This document shows positions 42,117 through 61,973 of a stretch of 64,000 nt of DNA, piece by piece. The stretch spans positions 1-64,000 of the IMG/VR virus record IMGVR_UViG_3300042887_002440; one strand, written 5' to 3'. The stretch is from a virus. Under the pieces are notes generated by a model. The model saw nothing but the letters and a program-made list of their open reading frames with translations, ran no database searches and had not been told where the DNA came from. Numbering within the stretch: position 1 is the stretch's first letter; the number at the start of each line of letters is the position of its first letter. The position numbers and the translations under genes were made by a program.

Positions 42117-43460
42117 ATGGCTTTATTAAACGAAGAATTGCAAAATAAATGGAGTCCAGTTCTGGATCATCCAGAATTAGCAAAAATTACTGATCCATAC
42201 AAAAAAGCAGTTACTGCAATTGTATTGGAAAATCAACAAGCAGCGATGGATTCAGATCGCGAAACATTGATGGAAGGAACACCAACTAATACAACTGGCG
42301 GTATTTCTAACTTCGATCCAATCTTAATCAGTTTAGTACGTCGTGCTTTACCTAATTTGATTGCATATGACGTAGCTGGCGTTCAACCAATGACTGGTCC
42401 TACTGGTTTGATCTTTGCTCTACGTTCACGTTATGGTGCACAAGGTTCAGCTCAAAGCAATGGCAGCACTTCTGGTGGCGGAACAGAAGCATTCTACAAC
42501 GAAGCTAATACTATCTTCTCTGGTATTATTGGCACAGGCGGTTCTGTTTCTACAGGTCAATCTAATACTGCTGTTGGTACATCAGGTCCAAATGCTAATT
42601 CAGTATTTGATTCTGGACAAGGTATGACAACTGCTGCTGGTGAAGTATTAGGCGACGGTAATGGTACTGTATTCGGCGAAATGTCAATTTCAATCGAAAA
42701 AGTTACTGTTTCTGCAAAAACTCGTGCATTGAAAGCTGAATACAGCTTAGAAATGGCACAAGATTTGAAAGCAATTCATGGTTTAGATGCTGAAACTGAA
42801 TTATCAAACGTTTTATCTACAGAAATTCTTGCTGAGATGAACCGTGAAGTAATTCGTACAATCTATACAGTTGCTAAAGCTGGTGCTCAATTCGGTACAG
42901 TTACTGCTGGTGTATTCGACTTAGATACAGACTCAAATGGTCGTTGGTCAGTTGAAAGATTTAAAGGTTTGATTTATCATATCGAAAGAGAAGCTAATCA
43001 AATCGCAAAAACAACACGTAGAGGAAAAGGTAACATCTTAATTGTTTCTTCTGACGTTGCTTCTGCTCTAGCAATGGCTGGCGTATTACAATATACTCCT
43101 GCTTTATCTGCTGATTTACAAGTTGACGATACTGGTAATACATTTGCTGGTTTGTTACACGGTCGTATCAAAGTTTATATCGATCCTTATTTCGGTGGTT
43201 CATATCAAAACGTTGAATTATGTACAGTTGGTTATAAAGGTACAAGTCCTTATGACTCTGGTTTATTCTACTGTCCATATGTTCCTTTACAAATGGTTCG
43301 TGCAGTTGATCCAGGTACTTTCCAACCAAAAATTGGCTTCAAAACTCGTTATGGTTTAGTTGCAAACCCATTTGCTGAAGGTTTAACTCAAGGCTTGGGT
43401 GCTATTACTCCACGTAGCAACAACTATTACAGAATTTTTGCAGTGAAAAATCTTATGTAA
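42117..43460 (+). CDS. gp23: gp23-like major capsid protein
   Basis: HK97-fold shell protein; 447 residues (T4 gp23: 521), the shorter size usual in marine T4-like phages. Conserved stretches: FDPILISLVRRALPNLIAYD, GVQPMTGPTGLIFALRSRY, GNGTVFGEMSISIEKVTVSA, KTRALKAEYSLEMAQDLKAI, RGKGNILIVSSDVASAL and the C-terminal KTRYGLVANPFAEG. A candidate gp21 site is LME-GT at residues 51-55, close to where T4 gp23 is trimmed. Strong AAGGAG ribosome site at 42102-42107. The bidirectional terminator at 43487 follows. Confidence 0.97.
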   Translation: MALLNEELQNKWSPVLDHPELAKITDPYKKAVTAIVLENQQAAMDSDRETLMEGTPTNTTGGISNFDPILISLVRRALPNLIAYDVAGVQPMTGPTGLIFALRSRYGAQGSAQSNGSTSGGGTEAFYNEANTIFSGIIGTGGSVSTGQSNTAVGTSGPNANSVFDSGQGMTTAAGEVLGDGNGTVFGEMSISIEKVTVSAKTRALKAEYSLEMAQDLKAIHGLDAETELSNVLSTEILAEMNREVIRTIYTVAKAGAQFGTVTAGVFDLDTDSNGRWSVERFKGLIYHIEREANQIAKTTRRGKGNILIVSSDVASALAMAGVLQYTPALSADLQVDDTGNTFAGLLHGRIKVYIDPYFGGSYQNVELCTVGYKGTSPYDSGLFYCPYVPLQMVRAVDPGTFQPKIGFKTRYGLVANPFAEGLTQGLGAITPRSNNYYRIFAVKNLM

Positions 43461-43486: not shown

Positions 43487-43510
43487 AAAAGGGAGCTTCG
43501 GCTCCCTTTT
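43487..43510 (+). terminator. Bidirectional terminator after gp23
   Basis: AAAAGGGAGC - TTCG - GCTCCCTTTT, the same stem-loop as at 987-1012. It ends both the late capsid transcript (plus) and the six-gene modification operon (minus, stop at 43520). A weaker hairpin GTTTCA-AGGA-TGAAAC lies at 43470-43485. Confidence 0.9.
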
Positions 43511-43519
43511 CTATTGTAT

Positions 43520-44062
43520 TTAAAATAAGAAAGAATTAATTTTATCTAAAATTATTTTTTGATCATCAAGAGTATTATTAGAATATGATTCTATAATGAA
43601 TAAAAAATCCATATTAGTTTGAATATTTGATATTTTTGATTTTCTACCTTTTAAAAATGTTTCAGATTGATCTGAACCCCTATCAGAATAACGTTCAGTT
43701 AATAATTTCTCATCTGCTGTCAATACAATGATTTTAAATTCTGTATCTGGTAGAGAAGATAAAAAATTAAAGAATTTTGAATTTGTTAATCTATCCCCCT
43801 CAAATATAATATTTGAATTACAGTTTGAAATAAAGTCTACTGCAGCAGGTTGAACTGCCATACTCATTCTATCTGTACCAGCAAATATTTCTCCTTCTTC
43901 ATACTTTCCCAAAATATGACAATCGTATTTTTCATTATATAAAGTAGGAACTAATTTAACTGGTTCTTTAGCAATCCAATCTTTTTGCTCATCAATAATT
44001 TTCTTAAACAAAGTAGTTTTACCAACTCCTGGTCTACCGATTACAGCTAATATTTTTCTCAT
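43520..44062 (-). CDS. P-loop kinase, candidate 5-hydroxymethyluracil DNA kinase
   Basis: 180 residues, last gene of the minus-strand modification operon. Walker A is AVIGRPGVGKTTLFKK (residues ~6-21). A Walker B-like strand is SNIIFEGDRL near 84-93, and a lid-like Arg cluster LTERYSDRGSDQ follows near 127-138, so it has the layout of a nucleotide-kinase-fold enzyme. Its size and place directly after a protein resembling amino acid:DNA transferases fit the DNA kinases that phosphorylate 5-hydroxymethyl-dU in hypermodified phage DNA. A free nucleotide or nucleoside kinase is the alternative, and the DNA target is inferred. It lies 9 bases after the upstream gene and is followed by the terminator. 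Confidence 0.6.
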   Translation of the reverse strand: MRKILAVIGRPGVGKTTLFKKIIDEQKDWIAKEPVKLVPTLYNEKYDCHILGKYEEGEIFAGTDRMSMAVQPAAVDFISNCNSNIIFEGDRLTNSKFFNFLSSLPDTEFKIIVLTADEKLLTERYSDRGSDQSETFLKGRKSKISNIQTNMDFLFIIESYSNNTLDDQKIILDKINSFLF

Positions 44063-44071
44063 AACAATTCC

Positions 44072-45091
44072 TTAAAAAAACGCATCAATACCTATTAATT
44101 GTACTTCTTCATCACTAAACATCCATTCAAGATATTCTAGTTTTCCAGTATTAATGAAATTACTAAATTTAAATTTATCTATACCTGTTCTTTTATCTAA
44201 ATTTGATGTTAAATATTCGCTTCTTGCTTGCCATAGAACATTCCAATCAATACCGATCCAACCATCATTTTCAGCTAAAAGTATTTCTTCTGCTTGCCTA
44301 TCTAAATAATATCCAAGATACCTTCCTCGTTTTTCTCTAAAAATTTTCTTAAATGAACATAAACAAGTTTCCATAGTAAAAAAATCTAAATTGTAGTTTA
44401 ATTCAGGAAATCTATGTGACATTTCTTGTAAAATGCTAATAGCTTCTTGTTCTAAGTAATCATATTGTTCTTTTGTTAATTTCGTATCACATTCAGAATC
44501 TCTACCTAAAGCTAGCAATAAACCATTTCTATGGGATCTAGAACCACTATAATCATTTAACATTAAAGAAGTAGGTTCAATTTTAATATTAGCTGTTGAT
44601 TTTAAATGCTGTAAATAAAACCAAGTAGAATATCTTCCAAATTTATAAAATTTAGAATTTACAATTTCCCATAAATTTTTAAAATTTTCTTTTTCATTTT
44701 GCCCATAAAAAGATTCTATAGCCTGTTTTTGGGTTGAATTAGAAACAAATTCTTTATAAGAATTAAACATTACAGGTAAATGCCCTTTATTCCATTTTGT
44801 ATCAGTTTGATATCTCAATTTTAAATAATTTTCAGTATTCCAATTATTTAATCTATCATAAGTTACTAACTCAAAATCAGGAAACTCATTTAATAATACC
44901 CAAGATGTAGGTAATTGATATGTATTGCTATATAACCAACAAAACCATATTTTTTGTTCTGAATTATGTTCAAACCTTTTATTTAAATAATTAGTTAACC
45001 ATACAGCTGGATCACAATCATTATATTTTAAAGACCAAGCGTACCAACGAATAAATGCTTCTCTTCTATTTTGTTTTATTCTATAATCCAT
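44072..45091 (-). CDS. Candidate amino acid:DNA transferase-like protein
   Basis: 339 residues, helical and rich in Trp and Tyr. Sequence blocks are EQKIWFCWLYSNTYQLPTSW, a central FYKFGRYSTWFYLQHLK, and DYSGSRSHRNGLLLALGRDS with conserved-looking polar residues; a further block is HRFPELNYNLDFFTMETCL. This matches my recollection of the alpha-glutamyl/putrescinyl thymine pyrophosphorylase class, in which members act as amino acid:DNA transferases that replace the phosphate of phosphorylated 5-hydroxymethyl-dU by an amino acid. The adjacent P-loop kinase supports it. The assignment rests on motif memory and context and is not certain. It overlaps the phosphatase gene by 16 bases. Confidence 0.5.
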   Translation of the reverse strand: MDYRIKQNRREAFIRWYAWSLKYNDCDPAVWLTNYLNKRFEHNSEQKIWFCWLYSNTYQLPTSWVLLNEFPDFELVTYDRLNNWNTENYLKLRYQTDTKWNKGHLPVMFNSYKEFVSNSTQKQAIESFYGQNEKENFKNLWEIVNSKFYKFGRYSTWFYLQHLKSTANIKIEPTSLMLNDYSGSRSHRNGLLLALGRDSECDTKLTKEQYDYLEQEAISILQEMSHRFPELNYNLDFFTMETCLCSFKKIFREKRGRYLGYYLDRQAEEILLAENDGWIGIDWNVLWQARSEYLTSNLDKRTGIDKFKFSNFINTGKLEYLEWMFSDEEVQLIGIDAFF

Positions 45092-45531
45092 GGATTAGTC
45101 GCGCCATCATTAATGTAAATTGTTAAAGCATTAACTAACATATCAATAACTTTCTTATGTAGTTCGTTATCTTTTGCGAAATTTGGATCTGGTATTTTTT
45201 CCTCACCAATCAAACTACTAATTCTAATAGATTTCTTTGAAGCATCAACTCCAAATTTAGAAAATAGCCGCTTTTCATTACTATCGTCCATATAAAAAAT
45301 AACATCAGCCCAATCAACCAACTCTTTTGATATTGGTGTTGATCTAATTCCATCAGTAGGGAATCCTTTTTCAGTTAGAGCCAATCGCATTTTTTTAGCA
45401 GTTATTTCTCCGCCATTAGTATCTTTTAAAGCCGCAGATTTAATTTCCCAATCTGGTTTAAATTTTTGTAAAATTATTTCACCAGCAGCACTTCTGTTAA
45501 TATTACCATGACAAACGAATAAAATTTTCAT
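45076..45531 (-). CDS. Low-molecular-weight phosphatase
   Basis: 151 residues, the usual size for the LMW protein-tyrosine phosphatase family. The P-loop CHGNINRS at residues 7-14 is the CX5R motif with Cys7 as nucleophile and Arg13 binding phosphate. The general-acid loop is KIPDPNF near 112-118. The fold is therefore complete and likely active. In this operon it could remove phosphate from DNA or nucleotide intermediates of base modification, or from a host protein; arsenate reductase is a less likely relative because the context gives no arsenic genes. It overlaps both neighbours (4 and 16 bases). Confidence 0.85.
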   Translation of the reverse strand: MKILFVCHGNINRSAAGEIILQKFKPDWEIKSAALKDTNGGEITAKKMRLALTEKGFPTDGIRSTPISKELVDWADVIFYMDDSNEKRLFSKFGVDASKKSIRISSLIGEEKIPDPNFAKDNELHKKVIDMLVNALTIYINDGATNPWIIE

Positions 45532-46496
45532 ATTCCACTTTCCTGTAATTCCAACATAATAGGATATACATCTTTTGCTGTTATAGTTCCTATTGCATCA
45601 ATATCTATTCTCTTTCTTAACGCAGAAAGTCTATTTGATATTTCAGTCTTAGTATTTGTATCAAAATTAGTCCACTGATATATTTGTTCAGCTTCAAAAT
45701 TATATGGTTGAAATTTAGGAAAAGACCAATCTTGTTCCATATAAAATTCTCTAGGGGAAATATCATCTAAATTCAATGCTGCATTTAAAAATTGTTGACA
45801 CCAACGAATACAAGATTCCATTTCTACCATATCTAACGTTCCAGGAAAATGTCTAAATTCTATGGTATTAGTTTCTTCCCACATTTGTCTCAAGTTAATT
45901 CCAGCTCTAGGGGAAAAATACCACATTCTACCTTTTTCTGTTAATGGAGCATGTTCCTCGTAAAATTCTTGAGTAGTTTTTGCTGCTAGCATTGCATCAA
46001 CTCTATTTTTCGGTAATTTATATTGATGAGATTTATGACGACGTTTCATTCGTTTCAAAGCCCATGTATATTCCAATGCAGGCATTGTTGATTTATTTGG
46101 TACAGGTATAGTTTCAACTATATCAAATGCTTGTTGTTGGTATCGTTCAATATATTTTAATAATTTTTTACAATCTTCTAAATTATCTTTTAGACCTGGA
46201 ACTCTTACATGAATATGTAAATTACTTCTATAATTAACGTTTGGTGCGGGAGATAATGCTAAGTTAATTAATTTAATATGTTCTATTTGATCTTCTATAC
46301 TATAAGTTGGTTTTGTATTAATTTCTCCACCAAATGAGTATAATTTGCCATGAGGATCGTTTCCAATTCCAGTTGAACTAACGCATGTATTATCTTTATC
46401 ATTCCAAGCAGCACCATCTGGCAATTCACAAAATCTATATGAATCACCATATTCCAATTCAACTCCATAACTCCATGCATCTACATCATAATTCAT
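45528..46496 (-). CDS. Amidoligase (glutamine synthetase-fold COOH-NH2 ligase)
   Basis: 322 residues, recognisable as an Amidoligase_2-type enzyme. The order of motifs fits: YGVELEYG near residues 10-17 (metal-binding Glu pair), SFGGEINTKP near 54-63, SNLHIHVRVPG near 91-101, and NTIEFRHFPGTLDM near 211-224. These enzymes use ATP to join a carboxylate to an amine or ammonia. The gene next to it encodes a glutamine-hydrolysing domain, so ammonia may be channelled to it. In this operon the carboxylate would be that of an amino acid attached to the base; this is inference. It overlaps the phosphatase gene by 4 bases. Confidence 0.82.
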   Translation of the reverse strand: MNYDVDAWSYGVELEYGDSYRFCELPDGAAWNDKDNTCVSSTGIGNDPHGKLYSFGGEINTKPTYSIEDQIEHIKLINLALSPAPNVNYRSNLHIHVRVPGLKDNLEDCKKLLKYIERYQQQAFDIVETIPVPNKSTMPALEYTWALKRMKRRHKSHQYKLPKNRVDAMLAAKTTQEFYEEHAPLTEKGRMWYFSPRAGINLRQMWEETNTIEFRHFPGTLDMVEMESCIRWCQQFLNAALNLDDISPREFYMEQDWSFPKFQPYNFEAEQIYQWTNFDTNTKTEISNRLSALRKRIDIDAIGTITAKDVYPIMLELQESGI

Positions 46497-46535
46497 ACAT
46501 AAATCCTCTTAGATATTTTTGTTTTACTAATATTT

Positions 46536-47222
46536 TCATAAATGTTGAAAGTCTTTACTATTTTCAATAATTTCTTCTTTAAAAACTTTGTTTAAATTAT
46601 TATCATATGTTACATATGTATTTAATGCAACTTCTATTGGTTTTTCTTTAATACCTGCTCTTTTTGGTATATTTTCAGTTGAAGTTATTATAACAGAATT
46701 ATTTAAAGAAGTAACGTATATTGGTCGTTTACCATTTCTAAAAACTTGTAATGTTTTATTTGCTGATAGAGTACAAACAGCCAACGAACTATCTTTCCAC
46801 TTAATTAATGGAGAAATATTCTCTTCTATTGTATGTAATAACAATTCAGAGTCATTTTTTGTCGAGCAATCATATCCGTATAATTCTTTCCACTTTTCTG
46901 GCAATTCTTGTGTGATTACTCCATTATGCACTACGGATATATTTTTATTAGAAATAGGCTGATTATATTCCAAATCACTTGTGCTATATCTACAATGACC
47001 AATAAGATAAAGATTTCCATCTTCGTTTATATAATCTAAAAAATTAAATTCAAATTTATTTGCTGGTACTGGAAATGATATAGTATGAACAATATTATCT
47101 TTTACATACGATAACCCAGTAGCATGCAACCCTCTAATACTAGATTCTAAAAATATTTTATGTATCAAATCAAAATCTAAATTAGAGGGGTTTTGCATTA
47201 AAACCCCTATAACTGCACACAT
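46536..47222 (-). CDS. Stand-alone class II glutamine amidotransferase domain
   Basis: 228 residues with the N-terminal nucleophile fold. Cys2 (MCAVIGVLM) is the catalytic nucleophile after Met removal. RGLHATGLS near 31-39, GHCRYSTSDLEYNQP near 75-89 and SVVHNGVI near 95-102 are the glutamine-binding and oxyanion elements seen in GlmS, PurF and AsnB. No synthetase or isomerase domain is attached, so it should supply ammonia to a separate enzyme, most simply the amidoligase 39 bases downstream. Its ATG overlaps the dioxygenase stop by one base. Confidence 0.87.
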   Translation of the reverse strand: MCAVIGVLMQNPSNLDFDLIHKIFLESSIRGLHATGLSYVKDNIVHTISFPVPANKFEFNFLDYINEDGNLYLIGHCRYSTSDLEYNQPISNKNISVVHNGVITQELPEKWKELYGYDCSTKNDSELLLHTIEENISPLIKWKDSSLAVCTLSANKTLQVFRNGKRPIYVTSLNNSVIITSTENIPKRAGIKEKPIEVALNTYVTYDNNLNKVFKEEIIENSKDFQHL

Positions 47223-48604
47223 TAAAAAAAGTTCTCCAAAGTGTTACCAAATTGCGTATCGTATAAATCTTTATGATAGGTTTGTAACCATTCTTTACCA
47301 TTGGGTTGCTTTAAAAGATAATCTACCCATTCTTGCGATTCCCACAATCCAGGAGTAATACCATTCCAACGATATCTTTGATCTGGGTGATCGGGATTTA
47401 ATCTACGACTATCAATAAATTCTCTACGAGTATTTTCATAATCATAAGAACCTAGCGTTAACATACCTTCATGGAAGAAAGCAATCATACTAATTCTTTC
47501 TGCATCAGGATCTTTTAATACTAATTCAGTATTTCCATGTAATCCAGCTTGATTATTTACCAATAACAAGTCAGTTGGTCTAACATTAACAGCATAACCT
47601 ATTTCTGGAAATACCAAATAACAGCCTTCATATTGGTCATTATTAGACATAACACAAAGATTAGCAAATCCATCTTCCATATTAGCAGGATCGTAATGAC
47701 CAGCAGTACGGAAATTTTTATTTACAGTAATTGTTGTAAATGGAGTTTCCGGAACAACAAATCTATGATCAATTGATTCTGCAGCTCGTTTTTGATTACC
47801 GTAACGCCATGGTAACATATCTTCAAATCCTTTAGCTAAAGATTTTAAGAATGGATACGACTTAGCAAACTTTTCTGCGTTATCTCTGGTGTATGTAGTT
47901 GGTCTACCATAAGGAATTCTAGGATATCTATCATACCAACCAGCAATACCAGAATTAACAACATTAGCATAAGTCGTTTTACTAATAAATTTATCTAAAA
48001 TACGTTGAGCTTCAGATTTTGCTTCATCAATAGTTAATGTACATAATTTATCAATAAAATCATTAAATACAAATTGTTCAGTTTTAATTTTTTCGCTTAA
48101 CCAAACAACTCCACGACTATCATCACATTTTAAATTTTTATATTTTGCTCTAATTGCATCAACATCAACTTTAGGATTATATTCGCCAAATACTGAGGTT
48201 GAGTTTTTATGAGCAAAAAATTCTAATAAATCAAATTGTTCATCAGTAACCCATTCTCTTCCTGCACAAGTAGCAGTTCTTGGTCCACCAGCCATACCGC
48301 GATTTTGAGTTTCAACTGCTGCATCTCGTAAACCAGCATAAGCCGCTGCTGCTTCTTCTTTATTAAAGAAGTTTTTACGAAACTTAAACACGATATTTTT
48401 TTCTGATAAACCTTTTGCGCAACCAGAGCAATTTAAATCATTATCGCAATTTTCCTCTGCAGTAAAATCAGAGCAATCTGGGGGAAGATATAAATCCATA
48501 TCTTCTTCTACTAATATTTTATAATGACTTTCATTAAGCCATTTACCAACCAAATCAGGTCTTGGAGTTACCTCTTCCGGTCTTAAAACAACAACTTGTA
48601 CCAT
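47222..48604 (-). CDS. TET/JBP-like 2-oxoglutarate/Fe(II) dioxygenase
   Basis: 460 residues, first gene of the operon. The double-stranded beta-helix is clear: FTTITVNKNFRTAGHYDPAN holds the HxD iron ligands (near residues 301-303), followed by DGFANLCVMSN, YEGCYLVFPEIGYAVNVRPT, the distal His in GLHGNTELV near 355 and the 2-oxoglutarate Arg in ERISMIAFFHEG near 371. This wording is closer to the TET/JBP oxygenases, which oxidise the methyl group of thymine or 5-methylcytosine in DNA, than to other dioxygenases. A four-Cys cluster near residues 44-69 (CSDF..CDNDLNCSGC) may bind zinc. Likely activity is T to 5-hydroxymethyl-U in DNA; 5-methylcytosine is possible if a methyltransferase lies outside the window. 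Confidence 0.82.
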   Translation of the reverse strand: MVQVVVLRPEEVTPRPDLVGKWLNESHYKILVEEDMDLYLPPDCSDFTAEENCDNDLNCSGCAKGLSEKNIVFKFRKNFFNKEEAAAAYAGLRDAAVETQNRGMAGGPRTATCAGREWVTDEQFDLLEFFAHKNSTSVFGEYNPKVDVDAIRAKYKNLKCDDSRGVVWLSEKIKTEQFVFNDFIDKLCTLTIDEAKSEAQRILDKFISKTTYANVVNSGIAGWYDRYPRIPYGRPTTYTRDNAEKFAKSYPFLKSLAKGFEDMLPWRYGNQKRAAESIDHRFVVPETPFTTITVNKNFRTAGHYDPANMEDGFANLCVMSNNDQYEGCYLVFPEIGYAVNVRPTDLLLVNNQAGLHGNTELVLKDPDAERISMIAFFHEGMLTLGSYDYENTRREFIDSRRLNPDHPDQRYRWNGITPGLWESQEWVDYLLKQPNGKEWLQTYHKDLYDTQFGNTLENFF

Positions 48605-48632
48605 CTATATCTCCTATTGTAAGTTCACATAT

Positions 48633-61274: not shown

Positions 61275-61973
61275 TTATGTGAATAATATTGATTCAATTA
61301 AGTGTAATTTTAATTTGGAAATATATTCTTTATGCGATATTCTTATGGTTTGAATATTATAGTGTTTGAGAATTAATGCATCTCGTTGTAAATCATATTC
61401 TTTGGTTTGTTCATGTTGAGATCCATCTAATTCTATTAGTAGGTTTAATCCTGGAAAATAAAAATCTCCGTAATATAATTTAGTAGGACATCTAAATGTT
61501 TTATTTTTTATAAAATTTGTATAATTGTTTTTTAATAGCCAATTTTCAAATGATTTTTCTAAATATGAAGGTGAACTTCTATTTCTATTTTCGTTGGGAT
61601 TCCAACCATTATCTATTCTATTTCTTACATGGTTGGATAGTAATATAGATTTACATTTAGTTGAACACGTTTTACCTGTTCCTGTGTGATATTTTTTGCA
61701 TATTATACATAGTTTTATTTTTGTATATGGATAATAATTCTTTGGTTTTGTTCCTTTTTCTGGTCCACTTTTGAATTTTGAATAATCTTTATTTCTATTT
61801 CCATATTTTGCAGAACATGATGATGAGCAAAATTTGTTTTTGTTAAAAATTGGGTTATTACACTCAATACAATATGATTTAATAACGTGTTTTTGTAGGT
61901 GTTGTTTTAATGATTGTGATGTTATTTCTTGTTTACAAATAATACAAGAACATCTAATATTAAATTTAGACAT
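61275..61973 (-). CDS. VSR/EDxHD-type homing endonuclease with zinc fingers
   Basis: 232 residues. The N-terminal half has three Cys-rich fingers (CSCIICKQE..., CIECNN...FCSSSC, CIICKKY...CSTKC). The C-terminal half has the nuclease core: YLEKSFENWLLKNNY, then YGDFYFPGLNLLIELDGSQH (Asp, Glu and Q-H) and KEYDLQRDALILKHYNIQTI, the pattern of Vsr-like/DUF559 endonucleases. It lies between tRNA-Ile and tRNA-Gly on the opposite strand, with a minus-strand late promoter. Confidence 0.8.
   Translation of the reverse strand: MSKFNIRCSCIICKQEITSQSLKQHLQKHVIKSYCIECNNPIFNKNKFCSSSCSAKYGNRNKDYSKFKSGPEKGTKPKNYYPYTKIKLCIICKKYHTGTGKTCSTKCKSILLSNHVRNRIDNGWNPNENRNRSSPSYLEKSFENWLLKNNYTNFIKNKTFRCPTKLYYGDFYFPGLNLLIELDGSQHEQTKEYDLQRDALILKHYNIQTIRISHKEYISKLKLHLIESILFT

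Follow-up and report, generated by a model that had tools for sequence, protein, structure and literature searches.

The stretch analysed here, which we call the window, comprises positions 1 to 64,000 of the IMG/VR virus record IMGVR_UViG_3300042887_002440, a 65,898-bp virus fragment. It derives from a T4-like phage encoding gp32, a scaffold protein, gp23, gp19, UvsY, a UvsW-like helicase and a sliding clamp. Between gp23 (42117-43460) and gp19/UvsY (48719, 49297) lies a minus-strand operon of six genes (43520-48604), which we consider likely to form one biosynthetic unit for the hypermodification of thymine in the DNA of the phage itself. The genes and the elements bordering them are the following.

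47222..48604, minus strand: TET/JBP 2-oxoglutarate/Fe(II) dioxygenase (hereafter TET), 460 amino acids (aa), Pfam Tet_JBP PF12851
46536..47222, minus strand: class II (Ntn) glutamine amidotransferase (GATase), 228 aa, the predicted ammonia source, GATase_6 PF13522 at 1.7e-11
45528..46496, minus strand: amidoligase, a glutamine-synthetase-like COOH-NH2 ligase, 322 aa, Amidoligase_2 PF12224
45076..45531, minus strand: low-molecular-weight phosphatase (LMWP), 151 aa, LMWPc PF01451 at 1.3e-16
44072..45091, minus strand: member of the amino acid:DNA transferase family (AADT), 339 aa, ADDT PF18724
43520..44062, minus strand: P-loop kinase, 180 aa, AAA_18 PF13238 and Ploopntkinase3 PF18751
43487..43510, no strand: hairpin AAAAGGGAGC-TTCG-GCTCCCTTTT with A-/T-rich flanks, between the convergent gp23 and kinase genes, read directly
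48608..48615, minus strand: Shine-Dalgarno-like AGGAGATA upstream of the TET start codon, read directly

A preliminary description of this DNA had placed six minus-strand open reading frames of 180, 339, 151, 322, 228 and 460 aa at 43520-48604, with overlaps of 1, 4 and 16 bases and gaps of 39 and 9 bases; the frames are borne out and the spacing agrees exactly. Its six family names likewise agree with the Pfam and PHROGs matches, and profile searches assign the 339-residue protein and the kinase to ADDT and the P-loop kinases rather than to unrelated families. The frames and the gene order are kept across dozens of independent contigs at protein identities of 45-73%, and the catalytic residues are conserved in at least 97% of homologues. 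Thus, the operon is not a chance arrangement.

For the first gene product, TET, the predicted reaction is oxidation of thymine in DNA at its 5-methyl group, giving 5-hydroxymethyluracil (hmU). It matches Tet_JBP at 3.2e-23 (82.2 bits against a cut-off of 34.9) and phrog_24024 at 2e-134, and its Fe/2-oxoglutarate residues H303, D305, H356 and R370 are invariant among 16 diverse homologues. A profile of the family recovers TET2 from the PDB at 3.6e-9 and Naegleria Tet more weakly; single-sequence phmmer searches of the PDB with TET and with GATase yielded nothing useful, the TET profile alone being effective. Homologues in L100, L101 and other named phages are annotated as 'SNF2 DNA repair protein', a probable misannotation.

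AADT, predicted to swap the phosphate of a phosphorylated hmU for an amine, matches the 'Amino acid:DNA transferase' family ADDT at 1.2e-19 (71.4 bits against a cut-off of 26.2) and phrog_3271 at 1.2e-54, and has homologues of approximately 28% identity across approximately 93% of its length in Ackermannviridae. Its structure prediction was too poor to use (mean predicted local distance difference test score, pLDDT, of 61; no meaningful PDB match). The kinase, whose predicted phosphate acceptor is the hydroxymethyl base in DNA, passes narrowly over the cut-offs of both AAA_18 (6e-7) and Ploopntkinase3 (2.8e-6), matches phrog_800 at 4.4e-14 and shares 39% identity with its counterpart in phage Cr30. 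Its Walker A motif G9xPxxGKxT is conserved in at least 97% of 82 sequences. In Pfam it matches PF13238 and PF18751 only, with no match to the HMUDK families PF18748/PF18723. Members of the kinase family have been filed as 'terminase small subunit' (phrog_800; NC_025422), again a probable misannotation.

The three remaining proteins also retain the motifs of their families. In GATase, the nucleophile C2, the oxyanion Asn-Gly pair N100-G101 and the glutamine-binding D124 are conserved in at least 97% of 55 homologues; in LMWP, so are the C7-x5-R13-S14 loop and the general acid D115-P116 in at least 97% of 14. NCBIfam similarities of GATase to asparagine synthase (5.6e-11) and PurF (8.6e-8) both fall far below the cut-offs. 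The amidoligase keeps an invariant GxExE motif (G11, E13, E15) and a conserved E213-F-R215. Its AlphaFold model (pLDDT 82) finds YbdK as the best Foldseek hit (probability 0.99, E 2e-3), followed by glutamine synthetase (GS), gamma-GCS and Dop, so that on the model the protein appears to have a GS-like fold. The amidoligase is 42% identical to a copy in phage Simon (L117, PQ683277, unannotated), where an LMWP 35.7% identical to ours likewise lies 3' of it. A further homologue, 30% identical, occurs in Vibrio phage 2.275.O (L118:5887-6996), next to genes for QueF, a queuosine biosynthesis protein, GTP cyclohydrolase and an Ntn hydrolase, that is, among 7-deazaguanine DNA-modification genes. This context suggests that the contribution of amidoligases is not confined to a single kind of DNA modification.

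To place the operon in a wider setting, IMG/VR was scanned for AADT; 336 stretches encode a relative, and 80 of the loci were retained. All 50 contigs in which TET stands upstream of AADT have GATase between the two, and the kinase is found in 76 of 82 AADT loci. The amidoligase occurs in 36 of the 50 TET-AADT cassettes and is absent anywhere in two 171-kb cassette-bearing relatives (G001 and G002). Every cassette holds one of three alternative third genes, namely a type a GNAT accompanied by an amidoligase (27/50), a type b GNAT with no amidoligase (14/50), or LMWP with a distinct amidoligase subtype, as in the window (9/50). LMWP accompanies this one subtype, phage Simon included. Since the two amidoligase subtypes are approximately 28% identical to one another and approximately 70-80% identical within type, the amidoligase and its partner gene are inherited together. 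Some cassettes add 2-oxoglutarate oxygenases, radical SAM proteins, a glycosyltransferase or a GIY-YIG/homing-endonuclease-like protein. In 13 of the 50, a 430-aa protein with a homing-endonuclease-like N-terminus (family f14, e.g., L003:1415-2716) stands directly upstream of AADT; its middle part looks ParB-like by eye, and gene 1 of phage VioletZ, beside TET, is ParB-like by PHROGs.

The closest relatives of the window phage provide a second line of evidence. In six sister phages (L083-L086, L088, L095), with identities of 93-96% for gp23, 95-96% for UvsW and 81-90% for TET, TET occupies the same site between gp23 and gp19 and is followed only by TAGT (PF20691, the Pfam family 'TET-associated glycosyltransferase'). 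In another sister group (L087, L091, L092; gp23 85%), the kinase directly follows TET. TET is thus the constant element and the downstream tailoring genes are exchangeable. That a glycosyltransferase takes their place at one and the same site argues strongly for all these genes acting on the product of TET. Compared with the other lineage, TET and the kinase of the window are approximately 50% identical, whereas GATase (56-60%) and the amidoligase (69%) are near that lineage's own range. This pattern fits a mosaic, in which tailoring genes would have been swapped in beside a resident TET and kinase, although different genes evolve at different rates. A homing-endonuclease-like gene (weak NUMOD-type match) sits in opposite orientation between TET and TAGT in one sister phage (L088:11402-12124), with equivalents in L089, L090, L093 and L094.

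Regarding the borders of the operon, the hairpin at 43487-43510 (GGGAGC-TTCG-GCTCCC) sets it apart from gp23 and is a probable bidirectional terminator. The T4 late-promoter motif TATAAATA was found 20 times in the AT-rich window against 19.4 expected, and no promoter class is claimed. Elsewhere in the window (61275-61973, minus strand), a DUF559 protein has a weak match (E 0.0037) to the N-terminal domain of PvuRts1I-like proteins, a family of modification-dependent nucleases.

Which base serves as the substrate is addressed by gene content in related phages. The preliminary description favoured thymine over 5-methylcytosine (5mC) and proposed searching for a C5-methyltransferase and a thymidylate synthase (TS)-like hydroxymethylase. 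Four cassette-bearing relatives of 165-171 kb, each also encoding a DNA polymerase, were found to have neither a C5-methyltransferase (PF00145) nor a TS-like (dUMP) hydroxymethylase, and the former was not found in 27 of the 28 records searched, these four included. The unannotated cluster of phage Simon is informative in this respect. It combines AADT, a DAO oxidoreductase, the amidoligase, LMWP, an HMUDK-type kinase and HMUDK_hel with Nmad5, a TS homologue and a YfbR-like nucleotidase; the kinase and its neighbour match PF18748 (below cut-off) and PF18723. At its base-recognition position the TS homologue shares Asn with ViI; in T4 gp42, a dCMP hydroxymethylase, this residue is Asp. Simon thus holds four of the six window functions where hmU is made as a nucleotide, which suggests that the window pathway is also built on hmU, and the comparison argues that TET would take the place of the nucleotide-level hydroxymethylase. 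Simon differs in lacking a detectable TET, in its kinase subfamily and in having no GATase that we could find in its first 40 kb. Both the absence of a C5-methyltransferase in relatives and the link of four genes to a dUMP-type hydroxymethylase make thymine the likelier substrate, in agreement with the initial proposal.

Other thymidylate enzymes were also considered. The ThyX of G001-G004 keeps a canonical RHR-type motif and was taken to serve ordinary dTMP synthesis. Phage DLP6 (L104) and contig G005 (L109), which have TET and no AADT, contain divergent ThyX-like open frames of 301-343 aa with a weak Thy1 match, and these proteins might make a modified pyrimidine nucleotide. The published restriction data for DLP6 are uninterpretable as printed, and we found none for Cr30 in the literature.

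The operon can be compared with several characterised or predicted systems. For 5-hydroxymethyldeoxyuridine (hmdU) in M6, ViI and phiW-14, phosphorylation by a 5hmdU DNA kinase and a subsequent further modification have been described (PMC6449724). These systems pair the kinase with an alkylamine transferase (PMC6449724; Lee et al. 2018). The window resembles these phages in having a kinase acting before transfer, a modification that would be completed in DNA, and an AADT homologous over approximately 93% of its length to that of ViI-like phages. In contrast, their hmU is thought to arise at the nucleotide level through a TS-like enzyme, of the type not found in the four large relatives, whereas here it is predicted to be made in DNA by TET; moreover, GATase and LMWP have not been described for their pathways and the window kinase is not of the HMUDK type. 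PMC6449724 states that phage hypermodification pathways were predicted by Iyer et al. (2013). As in TET-initiated phage systems, TET is clustered with tailoring enzymes, and the sister phages carry TAGT; the window cassette, however, tailors with a kinase, AADT, GATase and amidoligase in place of a sugar, and a C5-methyltransferase is missing from nearly all records searched. Among cultured phages, Mycobacterium phage VioletZ (genes 1-4) and Caulobacter phage Cr30 also bring TET, AADT and a P-loop kinase together, but an amidoligase was found in neither, and the stretches examined hold no GATase or LMWP; VioletZ adds a ParB-like protein and Cr30 a TAGT-like protein. Finally, in phages of the phiEco32/LUZ24 type, such as phage tf, a class II GATase adjoins Amidoligase_2. 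The tf GATase is a longer protein, only approximately 27% identical to that of the window, and TET, AADT and the kinase are not annotated nearby.

Taken together, the protein families, the intact motifs, the gene linkage, the exchange of tailoring genes behind TET and the lack of a C5-methyltransferase or TS-like hydroxymethylase in near-complete relatives support the earlier view that the six genes form one DNA-modification pathway. What is given here on the reactions and their order, the modified base and the structure of the final product is prediction from sequence throughout. TET would convert thymine in DNA to hmU, the P-loop kinase would transfer phosphate onto its hydroxymethyl group, and AADT would displace this phosphate by an amine, the last two steps being modelled on the logic published for M6, ViI and phiW-14 (PMC6449724). 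GATase would free ammonia from glutamine, and the amidoligase would form an ATP-dependent amide bond on the product, either acylating the amine or amidating an attached amino acid. LMWP, to which the preliminary description had given no part in its pathway, would work with this amidoligase type, perhaps by dephosphorylating the added group or any phospho-hmU left unused.

One element of the preliminary description is not supported as it was put, namely that GATase serves to feed the amidoligase. A constant coupling of the two, as would be expected of a phiEco32-type system, is not found here, as the 14 type b GNAT cassettes keep GATase with no amidoligase, and no amidoligase occurs in G001 or G002. 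The ammonia probably serves more than the amidoligase, and may feed the transferase, which would explain the constancy of GATase across cassettes. In PurF, ammonia displaces pyrophosphate, and the weak similarity of GATase to PurF and asparagine synthase would fit such a role, although it is no proof of it. We tentatively put forward, as a possibility rather less probable than its opposite, that ammonia passes from GATase to AADT and that a PurF-like exchange of phosphate for NH2 yields 5-aminomethyl-deoxyuridine in DNA, subsequently acylated by the amidoligase (with LMWP) or a GNAT. The lack of GATase in the examined stretches of the AADT phages Cr30 and VioletZ speaks against it. If true, this would establish a new family of DNA bases and a glutamine-fed reaction acting on the DNA polymer, with a substrate that a JBP-like dioxygenase of the phage had derived from thymine.

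Several observations weigh against thymine hypermodification by the operon. The amidoligase assignment rests on an Amidoligase_2 match of 9.7e-5 whose 22.8 bits barely exceed the cut-off of 22. The active-site residues of TET do not separate thymine from 5mC, and residue 308 is Asn here and in TET2 but Asp in most relatives and in Naegleria Tet. To our knowledge, the phage TETs whose activity has been tested act on 5mC only, oxidation of which by these enzymes was reportedly shown by Burke et al. in 2021. In an alternative scenario, the same operon would work on cytosine, with TET oxidising 5mC and the kinase, AADT and amidoligase building a hypermodified cytosine. The 5mC may be host-made or produced by a methyltransferase encoded elsewhere in the genome, of which the window is a fragment. 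Methylophilales phage Melnitz, the lone C5-methyltransferase positive among the 28 records, has this gene adjoining TET, in close succession with a kinase 33% identical to that of the window, so that membership of this kinase family does not imply thymine; the TAGT family of the sister phages, named for its association with TET, points in the same direction. We nevertheless regard cytosine as an unlikely target, given that the four large cassette-bearing relatives and 23 other records have no C5-methyltransferase, and that in Simon the AADT, amidoligase, LMWP and kinase functions sit with an Asn-type, uracil-recognising TS homologue.

It is also conceivable that the operon joins two modules, TET, kinase and AADT acting on DNA, and GATase, amidoligase and phosphatase acting on the cell wall or a metabolite as proposed for phiEco32-like phages. 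Iyer et al. (2009), as cited in PMC10580990, suggested that the GATase-amidoligase pair acts on the cell wall, and podophage tf has the pair with TET and AADT not nearby. The position of GATase between TET and AADT in all 50 cassettes, the presence of the amidoligase and LMWP within the thymine-hypermodification cluster of Simon, and the amidoligase homologue beside 7-deazaguanine genes in Vibrio phage 2.275.O render this division improbable. That the enzymes act on RNA, free nucleotides or a small molecule seems to us more doubtful still, and very improbable: the GNAT, amidoligase, LMWP and GATase families do have other substrates elsewhere, but the TET/JBP, ADDT and kinase families are built around DNA-modifying members, and the same-site exchange with a TET-associated glycosyltransferase fits DNA modification.

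Hypermodification of thymine remains our preferred reading, and parts of it are already known. TET, AADT and kinase occur as a trio in the cultured phages VioletZ and Cr30, and TET-initiated phage base hypermodification was reportedly predicted by Iyer et al. in 2013. As far as we know, novelty lies in the near-universal GATase, in the regular exchange of amidoligase/LMWP against GNAT, in how abundant the cassette is and in its connection to phage Simon. The combination was initially described as unusual, which holds among named phages; it is not rare, given that the single IMG/VR scan returned 336 matching stretches. We know of thymine-oxidising TET/JBP enzymes shown only in kinetoplastids and their relatives, and the cassette family predicts a phage thymine dioxygenase that feeds an amine-transfer pathway. 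Since Cr30 and VioletZ share the core, a direct test is possible in cultured phages. The cassette probably yields bases not seen before; it is a source of candidate enzymes for site-selective DNA labelling, and suggests types of modification that face the restriction systems of environmental hosts.

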